DNA of 51,786 nucleotides. Origin: Pelosinus propionicus DSM 13327 (lineage in GTDB: Bacteria > Bacillota > Negativicutes > DSM-13327). The position numbers were made by a program, and so were the translations under genes. Where the stretch lies: positions 1 to 51,786 of the forward strand of contig NZ_FOTS01000038.1 of assembly GCF_900114615.1 (NCBI RefSeq). Reading direction: 5' to 3'. A model generated the notes under the pieces. The model saw only the letters and a program-made list of their open reading frames with translations. It did no database searches and was not told where the DNA came from. Positions 36,945 to 39,374 of the stretch are shown piece after piece (within the stretch, counting starts at the first letter, position 1; each line of letters begins with the position of its first letter).

Positions 36945-37030
36945 TGGTGCCGAAGGCCGGACTCGAACCGGCACGTGGAGTACACGTCTGATTTTGAGTC
37001 AGGTGCGTCTGCCAATTCCGCCACTTCGGC
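36945..37030 (-). tRNA. tRNA-Leu (anticodon CAA), copy 1
   Basis: The 86-base class II tRNA has CCA encoded. Acceptor arm GCCGAAG pairs with CTTCGGC, the anticodon loop is CTCAAAA in a CTGA/TCAG stem, a long variable arm follows, and the T-loop is GTTCGAGTC. It reads UUG codons. It is identical to copy 2. Confidence 0.95.
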
Positions 37031-37236: not shown

Positions 37237-37322
37237 TGGTGCCGAAGGCCGGACTCGAACCGGCACGTGGAGTACACGTCTGATTTTGAGTCAGGTGCGT
37301 CTGCCAATTCCGCCACTTCGGC
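37237..37322 (-). tRNA. tRNA-Leu (anticodon CAA), copy 2
   Basis: This 86-base gene is identical to the copy at 36945-37030 over its full length, including the CCA end. It has its own promoter and terminator, so the two copies are separate transcription units rather than one tandem transcript. Confidence 0.95.
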
Positions 37323-37479: not shown

Positions 37480-37842
37480 ATGGCAACGAAAATGGGGCGT
37501 TTACCTGTAAAAAAAGTTTTATTGAATAGCAAAACTGTTAGTGATGAAGGTGAATATGAATTTATTATCGATTGTGATTCGATTTATTTTGATGTAGGGT
37601 ATGATAATGAAGGTAATTTGCAATTTGTCGATCAGTATTTTTATACAGACCGTAATCCTCAAGGTGATTTAAATTCTGCTGCTGAGCAAAGTCTTCTATT
37701 AAGTGTTGACGATAACGATTTTCCTGTGAAAAGTTATCTTTTAGCGAAGCAAGAACAAGGGAATGAATGGCTGCGGTTTCATGCGGTAGTGCCTAAAACA
37801 GTTGATCCTGGATATTTTCATCAAAAATACCTTGGGGAATAA
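37480..37842 (+). CDS. Acidic soluble protein of unknown function
   Basis: The 120-residue protein is rich in Asp, Glu and aromatic residues (FIIDCDSIYFDVGYDNEGNL), with a predicted mostly beta character and no membrane segment. I do not recognise the family. ATG 37480 has GAGGAGGAT just upstream; a longer frame to 37417 runs through the ribosome site. A terminator follows. It is flanked by divergent tRNA genes and the orphan kinase. Confidence 0.6.
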   Translation: MATKMGRLPVKKVLLNSKTVSDEGEYEFIIDCDSIYFDVGYDNEGNLQFVDQYFYTDRNPQGDLNSAAEQSLLLSVDDNDFPVKSYLLAKQEQGNEWLRFHAVVPKTVDPGYFHQKYLGE

Positions 37843-37873
37843 ATAGTAATCTTTTTAATCAATTTCATATCTA

Positions 37874-37906
37874 TAGAGATAGCATCTTTGCTGTCTCTAT
37901 TTTTCT
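37874..37906 (+). terminator. Terminator after the acidic protein gene
   Basis: TAGAGATAGC pairs with GCTGTCTCTA (one mismatch), followed by TTTTTC. Confidence 0.8.
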
Positions 37907-38019: not shown

Positions 38020-38132
38020 TGTCGAAATGAAGTAGAAAAGTGAGTGGGGATACGCTTGTTAAAACTAGGGTATTGAGACTTTGCATAAGAATATTCGACA
38101 AAACAGGCTGGTTTACTTAGAATTATGTCGCA
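38020..38132 (+). promoter_or_regulatory. Cluster of Spo0A-box-like sites before the histidine kinase
   Basis: TGTCGAA (38020-38026) and its inverse TTCGACA (38094-38100) both match the 0A-box core exactly; TGTCGCA (38126-38132) differs at one base. All lie 100-215 bases before the kinase start. Clustering of two exact boxes in 81 bases is unlikely by chance, but binding is an inference. Confidence 0.5.
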
Positions 38133-38234
38133 ATTTTACGAAAAGAACTTAGTCTAATTTAGCAGGACTTACAATTATTTACAAGAATATAAAGTATCAC
38201 TTTAATAAATAGGAAGGTAAGGAGAGGGCAAAAT

Positions 38235-39374
38235 ATGTACTTAGCGGCAGCTTCGCAAAATAGATTAGTACATTTAGTTAAAGAAGATGAGTATAAAGAA
38301 TATTTTGAGTCGACGACAAATGGAATCATACATCTTGACCGAGAAATGCGTATAAAAAGTTTGAATCGGGAAGCGGAACGAATTGGAGGAGTGGCTCATT
38401 CTGCTGTAATCGGAAAACGGGCGGAATTTGTTTTTCGAAAATACGGTGAACAATTCTTGAAAATCTTTGATATTTCAGAATATGAGGACATTAAGACTGC
38501 TAATATTAGTTTGAAAAGTAATGATCAAATCATTTATCTACACATCGATGCATTGAGGCTGGTTGATTCGCTGGGTGAATTCAATGGGATGATTGTTATA
38601 TTACAGGATGTGTCTGCTGTAAGAGCCGCTATAAAGCAAATACAGACTACACAAATGCTAGTATCATTGGGAGAATTAGCAGCTGGTGTAGCACATCATG
38701 TACGAACTCCTTTAACCACCATTAGCGGGTATCTGCAAGTTATGTTAGGGCGTATTGATGATGACAAGTATACTGTGCGTCGTGATGTATTGGAAACTTT
38801 ATTGGGTGAAGTTTCCTATATCAATGATGTAGTAAAAGAATTAATTCTTTTTGCAAAACCTCCTGTGCAAAAAGAGCCGGGTGTTGATTTGAATCGTTTG
38901 ATGGAAGAAGCACTATTGCTGAGTTTTAAAGATTTAGGTGGCGAAAAGATTAATATTAATAAAGAATTGGCTAAGAATCTTCCTGTTATTACTGCGGACA
39001 AAAATCTTATAAAGCAAGCGGTTATGAATATTATGCAAAATGCAATAGAATCCATGGATGGGGAAGGGATATTGAGTATAAAATCTTGGATGAATGCAGA
39101 GCTTAGTATGCTGGTGCTTGCAATCAATGATACTGGGACAGGAATAACACCAGAAATATTGTCACGCATATTTGAACCTTTTTACACAACTAAATTGGAT
39201 CGAGTCGGATTGGGGTTGCCTATTGCCAATCGTATTATTACAGAACATGGTGGTTTTGTTAATATTAGTGTAGGCGAGAAAGGTGGTACGAAAGTACATG
39301 TTTATTTGCCAATTGTTGATGACTGTACCAATCGCTTAGCAGTAGTGCATCAACAAATCTTAAATTTACAATAA
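38235..39374 (+). CDS. Orphan PAS-domain sensor histidine kinase
   Basis: The 379-residue protein has no membrane segment. A PAS domain covers about residues 20-130 (TTNGIIHLDREMRIKSLNRE), then HisKA with the phospho-acceptor His154 in LAAGVAHHVRTPLTTISGYL, then a HATPase domain with the N-box NIMQNAIESM, NDTGTGI, FEPFYTTK and GLGLPIANRI. The residue after the active His is His155 instead of the usual Glu. No response regulator is adjacent, as for sporulation kinases. With Spo0A-like boxes upstream, a role in a Spo0A pathway is plausible but not shown. AAGGAGAGGG precedes the ATG. Confidence 0.88.
   Translation: MYLAAASQNRLVHLVKEDEYKEYFESTTNGIIHLDREMRIKSLNREAERIGGVAHSAVIGKRAEFVFRKYGEQFLKIFDISEYEDIKTANISLKSNDQIIYLHIDALRLVDSLGEFNGMIVILQDVSAVRAAIKQIQTTQMLVSLGELAAGVAHHVRTPLTTISGYLQVMLGRIDDDKYTVRRDVLETLLGEVSYINDVVKELILFAKPPVQKEPGVDLNRLMEEALLLSFKDLGGEKININKELAKNLPVITADKNLIKQAVMNIMQNAIESMDGEGILSIKSWMNAELSMLVLAINDTGTGITPEILSRIFEPFYTTKLDRVGLGLPIANRIITEHGGFVNISVGEKGGTKVHVYLPIVDDCTNRLAVVHQQILNLQ

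Follow-up and report, generated by a model that had tools for sequence, protein, structure and literature searches.

A conserved orphan PAS sensor gene of Pelosinus with upstream 0A boxes and a sigma-H-type promoter: a candidate regulator of the sporulation phosphorelay

The sensor gene and its locus

The window analyzed here, the whole stretch of 51,786 nucleotides at positions 1 to 51,786 of contig NZ_FOTS01000038.1 (C91) in the 5.41-Mb genome of Pelosinus propionicus DSM 13327, carries at 38235-39374 of the plus strand a gene for a 379-residue orphan sensor of the PAS-HisKA-HATPase_c type, with 0A boxes starting at position 38020 and a sigma-H-type promoter upstream of it (Table 1). The HisKA and HATPase_c domains exceed the Pfam cut-offs, and the PAS domain, for which the cut-off is 22.6 bits, scores 22.4 with the whole protein and 25.3 with the N-terminal part alone. 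Inspection by eye revealed no obvious membrane segment, and the protein is predicted to be soluble. Among NCBIfam models the sensor scores highest with AtoS and ZraS and third with KinD, all of them far below cut-off. An AlphaFold model of the sensor was set aside (mean pLDDT 68, pTM 0.43, residues 138-184 and 189-208 below 50). The initial annotation had described the gene as having no cognate regulator, and this orphan status is borne out, no receiver-domain match being found on the contig.

Table 1 Features of the sensor gene and its upstream region (window coordinates)
Feature	Position	Strand	Remarks
Terminator-like hairpin 3' of the 120-residue protein gene	37873..37900	+	1 found; shuffles mean 0.7, weak
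0A box 1, exact core TGTCGAA	38020..38026	+	-215 from ATG
0A box 2, exact core, inverted	38094..38100	-	-141 from ATG
0A box 3, TGTCGCA	38126..38132	+	One mismatch; -109 from ATG; fixed promoter block begins here
TTACGAA, possible second half-site	38136..38142	+	10 bp downstream of box 3; differs from the 0A core at 2 letters
Sigma-H-type -35 element AGGA	38164..38167	+	
Sigma-H-type -10 element GAAT	38185..38188	+	17 nt 3' of AGGA
Ribosome binding site AAGGAG	38219..38224	+	Read directly from the sequence
PAS domain	38289..38612	+	Residues 19-126
HisKA domain	38667..38858	+	
H154-H155	38694..38699	+	Phospho-acceptor His, then His where Glu/Asp is usual
HATPase_c domain	38997..39314	+	Residues 255-360
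Altered G2 ATP-lid motif	39192..39218	+	K-LDRV-GLGL
C-terminal tail	39348..39371	+	HQQILNLQ

The named orthologs, at 90-96% identity, are those of Pelosinus. Out of the 15 named ortholog loci 13 were tested, and in 12 of these the kinase gene is followed by genes for an L,D-transpeptidase and polA; in the remaining one (L007) the contig ends right after the kinase gene. On the 5' side, a 120-residue protein without a Pfam or NCBIfam match (window 37480-37842) precedes the kinase in 11 of the 13 tested loci, and locus L009 has no match to it. Further upstream lie two tRNA-Leu(caa) genes on the minus strand (36945-37030 and 37237-37322), about 300 bp apart and nearly identical by eye.

Spo0A, the 0A boxes and the sigma-H-type promoter

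The gene for Spo0A, on whose presence the feedback proposed by the initial annotation depends, is present in the genome, its product scoring 402 bits against spore_0_A. Its C-terminal DNA-binding domain closely matches the solved chains 1lq1 and 1fc3, which we take to be from B. subtilis and a Geobacillus, and TT.SRVERAIRHAIEVAWSRGN is common to them; about 40 bp upstream of the spo0A start we found TTTGTCGAA. The Spo0F candidate is a single receiver of 132 residues encoded on contig C89, whose eight best solved relatives are all Spo0F chains. Between rpmA and obg, presumably the Spo0B neighbourhood, a 76-residue SPOB_a frame (L066:3154-3384, G000 C84) is the Spo0B candidate. It has no C-terminal domain, and the approximately 300 bp beyond it show no evident continuation in any of the three frames. 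A phosphorelay with a reduced Spo0B is thus likely in this genome.

Across 380 genomes of the class we called the kinase (E <= 1e-70, the five best first-look candidates per genome being scored) in 49 and Spo0A in 56, with both in 47, an association that is inflated by shared ancestry. The kinase gene occurs in two of the 324 Spo0A-negative genomes (G005 and G009, 83 and 85% complete) and is missing from nine of the 56 Spo0A genomes (G002, G077, G086, G087, G090, G094, G095, G301 and G315), five of which are at least 93% complete. The kinase is therefore not essential to sporulation wherever those nine genomes sporulate. A sample at the order level, with the kinase in nine and Spo0A in eight of ten genomes, is too small and is contained in the class-level set.

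Two exact inverted 0A-box cores and a third near-match had been claimed upstream of the gene, and all three are present. The core is TGTCGAA according to PMC3485338 (this and the other papers cited by PMC number are drawn on as excerpts of their text). Judged within the window alone the cores are weak evidence: nine exact heptamers occur where 4.0 would be expected on average, and three of 100 shuffles reached that number. That they exceed chance is shown by their conservation among genus representatives. At -240 to -121, at least one exact core is found in 18 of 26 representatives (300 dinucleotide-shuffle rounds: mean 0.31, largest 4) and two cores in 14 of the 26, always the plus core and then the minus core, an arrangement of two that the shuffles never gave; these representatives are mutually related and do not amount to 26 independent trials, and g41 (G096) and g79, with too short an upstream sequence, were left out. 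TGTCGAA is also the commonest 7-mer of this interval among the representatives, and the rest of the upstream sequence has largely diverged among the homologs despite the kept cores. Of the 15 named ortholog loci, those with 4 kb of flanking sequence upstream, one near-duplicate excluded, make up a set of 11. Their 200-bp promoter intervals contain 17 cores over a total of 2,200 positions, compared with 16 cores over 93,295 positions elsewhere.

The exact plus and minus pair occurs in 30 of the 49 homologs. Only the plus core is kept in G088 and, at the expected place, in five g84 genomes; in three g39 genomes it is the minus core alone that stands at the expected place, and in the G078 homolog TGTCGACA replaces the exact pair. 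No exact core was found within 400 bp upstream in G079, G080, G081, G089, G287, G288 and G318, nor in the upstream sequence of G096; that of G294 ends at 72 bp. Spo0A dimers are known to use half-sites in a 10-bp tandem layout, and the TTACGAA that follows box 3 has the place of a weaker half-site in such an arrangement.

Between box 3 and the gene lies a sigma-H-type promoter that the initial annotation had overlooked. The homologs share a block in which TGTCGnnnTTTTACGA is followed by GCAGGA and, at some distance, by TTACAAGAAT. We aligned 24 anchored genera on TGTC and TT.[CG]GA; part of the conservation seen at these letters therefore comes from the anchoring itself, which does not apply to AGGA, GAAT or the 38-bp spacing. 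Of the 49 homologs examined 45 could be anchored, and in every one of them AGG begins 38 bp past the first letter of TGTCG. Among the other four, G079 has the same block with the same spacing, shifted upstream to -202, G318 has a partial block and G294 is truncated. For G096 a block that looked likely by eye was rejected by score, its 24 of 49 positions being no better than chance (shuffles: mean 23.4, largest 29). The strict AGGA-N17-GAAT is found in 38 of the 49 homologs, and AGG[AT]-N15-19-GAA[TA] at -78 to -62 in 42; the strict form fits what we take to be the sigma-H consensus. The genome has a sigH gene. The spoIIA operon of B. subtilis is a sigma-H target, and in the present genome a promoter of the same layout lies upstream of spoIIAA, where the 360 bp scanned hold no exact 0A core. 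AGGA-N17-GAAT also lies upstream of spo0F, which in B. subtilis is a sigma-H gene as stated in the title of a cited paper. SpoVG, sought as a yardstick for sigma-H, gave no match in the genome.

Searched genome-wide, TGTCG..AGGA-N16-18-GAAT is not enriched (14 matches, 22 in a reversed control). The motif therefore predicts nothing by itself, and it is conservation that carries the case. Putative Spo0A sites at a fixed distance directly 5' of a sigma-H-type promoter suggest activation, and it is very probable, judging from sequence, that Spo0A and sigma-H control the kinase gene. The feedback control by Spo0A put forward in the initial annotation is thus well supported at the level of sequence, by the conserved boxes, the presence of spo0A and the sigma-H-type promoter.

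Active site, relatives and specificity residues

The H-box of the sensor reads H-H-V-R-T-P and departs from the canonical H-E/D-x-x-N/T. Among the 49 homologs it is HHVRTP in 41, HHVRAP in five, HHVRSP in one and HHIRTP in one, and the G096 homolog has no phospho-acceptor His. Thr or Ser thus stands at H+4 in 43 of the 48 HH homologs, and the five with Ala belong to one genus, g84. The genome has 30 HisKA and 60 receiver-domain matches. The H-box was read in 26 of the HisKA rows; in 25 of them Glu or Asp follows the His, and in the present sensor alone a second His does. The top three solved relatives in sequence, 9jfj (ZraS), 3a0r (a sensor protein, presumably ThkA) and 3d36 (sporulation kinase B), likewise have H-E opposite the H-H of the sensor. 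In an alignment of 28 homologs, with one per genus except for g1, which has two, and excluding G096, the G2 motif is [RH][MVILF]G[LI]GL, against GTGLGL in the seven that were read among the genome's eight other orphan kinases. H154, H155, N265, N269, D299, G301, G303, G325 and G327 are invariant in all 28. A QQ.LNLQ tail ends 47 of the 49 homologs; one other ends in LNLH and that of G096 differs.

These eight other orphan kinases have HE(I/V)RNPM with GFLQ-like letters after it, and their nearest receiver lies 4-57 kb away or is not found on the contig. In a tree the HH group is set apart by a branch with support of 100/99, and it is sister to the orphan HE kinases with weak support (82/66), nine of the 30 HisKA rows being omitted, among them the HE-type orphan kinase L046; the window copy, L045, is present as L055. 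One HE-type orphan kinase, L136 (G000 C89:47500-51500), has exact TGTCGAA cores of its own at -104 (minus) and -69 (plus) of its frame, and the stretch scanned near the start of the other seven has none. The G096 homolog (L128, G096 C10; 43% identity) keeps a full-length frame and has lost both the phospho-acceptor His and the QQ.LNLQ tail; it is possibly a natural pseudokinase. It falls inside the HH clade, on a long branch that leaves its placement unsure.

The acid after the phospho-acceptor His acts as general base (PMC7005713). In CrdS it is needed for kinase activity, whereas phosphatase activity depends on the Asn at +4; replacing the acid by Ala abolished the kinase and left the phosphatase activity, with similar results reported for HK1190, HK4262 and HK853, and in CrdS kinase activity was undetectable even after Glu to Asp (PMC3510030, excerpt). 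By analogy with this rule most HH homologs would be impaired as kinases and capable as phosphatases. The inference is not firm, because the substitutions covered in the excerpt were to Ala, or Asp in CrdS, and not to His, which can itself serve as a base; and because of the Ala at H+4 a pure phosphatase does not fit the five g84 homologs. The initial annotation had suggested a KinA-type kinase feeding Spo0A. The orphan PAS-HisKA-HATPase_c design of that proposal stands, but that the sensor is a kinase feeding Spo0A is less sure, given HH in 48 of 49 homologs and the altered ATP lid. With the catalytic acid replaced by His, the feedback may be negative.

The residues that set partner specificity read TTGYQV here and TTGYQ(V/I/L/F) in all 48 HH homologs. 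We mapped the six positions onto the H-box ourselves, and the KinA letters, as we assume them, fit the mapping. The positions come from the excerpted text of PMC6136694, in which the set is TAGFQL in KinA, TTGFQL in Dtox_1918 and mostly TTGFQ(M/L/F) in the D. acetoxidans orphans, and in which Dtox_1918 phosphorylated Spo0F and not Spo0A directly. Compared with these KinA-type sets the sensor has conservative changes only (Phe to Tyr, Leu/Met to Val), and the likeness points to Spo0F rather than Spo0A as its target. We consider it probable that the sensor acts on Spo0F.

Sign of the feedback and comparison with known systems

Our reading of the locus, held tentatively and a little short of an even chance, is that the gene encodes a soluble orphan sensor belonging to the Spo0 phosphorelay, induced by Spo0A and sigma-H, which would be a weak autokinase and would act as a Spo0F~P phosphatase brake gated by its PAS domain. 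As the upstream sequence suggests, Spo0A~P on the boxes would activate the sigma-H promoter, and, as the specificity residues suggest, the sensor would dock on Spo0F through a KinA-type surface. Its autokinase activity would probably be weak because the catalytic acid is His and the ATP lid is altered, the likeliest output would be removal of phosphate from Spo0F~P, and such an inducible brake would tune or delay commitment to sporulation. A brake is somewhat favoured, being slightly more likely than an amplifier. Extended to the whole clade, and put forward with slightly less confidence, the proposal is that in a group of Negativicute spore-formers a sporulation kinase has turned into a Spo0A/sigma-H-induced protein that brakes or reads the Spo0F~P pool, with the HH box, the altered ATP lid and the QQ.LNLQ tail as its marks and negative feedback placed directly in the phosphorelay.

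That the sensor is instead an active KinA-like kinase in a positive loop, in which Spo0A~P together with sigma-H would increase the kinase and the kinase, with His155 as the base, would feed Spo0F and then Spo0A, is a serious if rather doubtful alternative. The conserved H154 and ATP-site residues (N-box, G1, G2) fit a His acting as base, the specificity residues are KinA-like, and the kinA gene of B. subtilis is raised by Spo0A~P via AbrB and sigma-H, also a positive loop (PMC3269414, excerpt). On the other hand, the catalytic acid is missing from 48 of 48 HH homologs, G2 is altered in the 28 aligned, and even the Glu to Asp exchange left CrdS with no detectable kinase activity (PMC3510030). 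We regard as unlikely a sensor of the DivL kind, whose DHp domain would bind Spo0F~P without catalysis and pass the signal on via the PAS domain, the ATPase domain or the C-terminal tail. DivL is a precedent (PMC4211667, excerpt), 47 of 49 homologs retain the tail, and the G096 copy, of unsure placement inside the clade, retains a full-length frame without the phospho-acceptor His; yet H154 is retained in 48 of 49, so that the phospho-acceptor is not replaced, and with its promoter block at chance level and its differing tail the G096 copy may be decaying or otherwise employed. Less likely still is a sensor under Spo0A/sigma-H control that serves another response regulator, for example one of stationary-phase metabolism: AtoS and ZraS are the top NCBIfam models, far below cut-off as they are, and 60 receiver-domain matches offer partners, but the specificity residues resemble the Spo0F-type set and the tree (82/66, nine HisKA rows missing) groups the sensor with the orphan kinases of the genome and not with most paired ones. 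Finally, even with about twice the chance number of exact heptamers in the window and no genome-wide enrichment of the composite pattern, we reject a chance origin of the 0A cores and find it very improbable that the sites arose by chance or serve a regulator unrelated to Spo0A, as their conservation across genera is far above shuffles and the gene strongly co-occurs with Spo0A.

Among the matches listed for the literature on sporulation in Pelosinus and Negativicutes, as judged from titles and abstract openings, no study deals with the present gene and none treats a Negativicutes sporulation kinase; the sporulation decision in these Firmicutes with an outer membrane seems little studied. The locus offers a conserved and testable candidate for a Spo0A/sigma-H feedback node, and its odd active site makes the sign of the feedback the question.

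Like KinA-KinE of Bacillus and the D. acetoxidans orphans such as Dtox_1918, the sensor is an orphan with PAS, HisKA and HATPase_c domains and Spo0F-type specificity residues, in a genome with Spo0F and Spo0A, and its gene has a sigma-H-type promoter as does kinA. Unlike them it has H-H in place of H-E/D and an altered G2 motif, and the gene has exact 0A boxes beside the promoter, whereas Spo0A is described as acting on B. subtilis kinA via AbrB and sigma-H (PMC3269414). With Caulobacter DivL it shares a non-canonical H-box, a PAS sensor and a single-domain regulator as likely partner; the phospho-site of DivL is a Tyr (PMC4211667), whereas His is kept in 48 of the 49 homologs of the present sensor. 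The orphan kinase homologs PtpA and PtpB of C. difficile also look like sporulation kinases and appear to be mainly phosphatases that lower sporulation (PMC11210211, excerpt), and they count in favour of the brake reading. However, PtpA and PtpB are large transmembrane proteins of an organism in which no classical phosphorelay was found (PMC11210211), whereas the Pelosinus sensor has no evident membrane segment and its genome encodes Spo0F and a Spo0B candidate. The Pelosinus wiring would thus be a more direct form of either the positive loop of B. subtilis or the phosphatase control of C. difficile.
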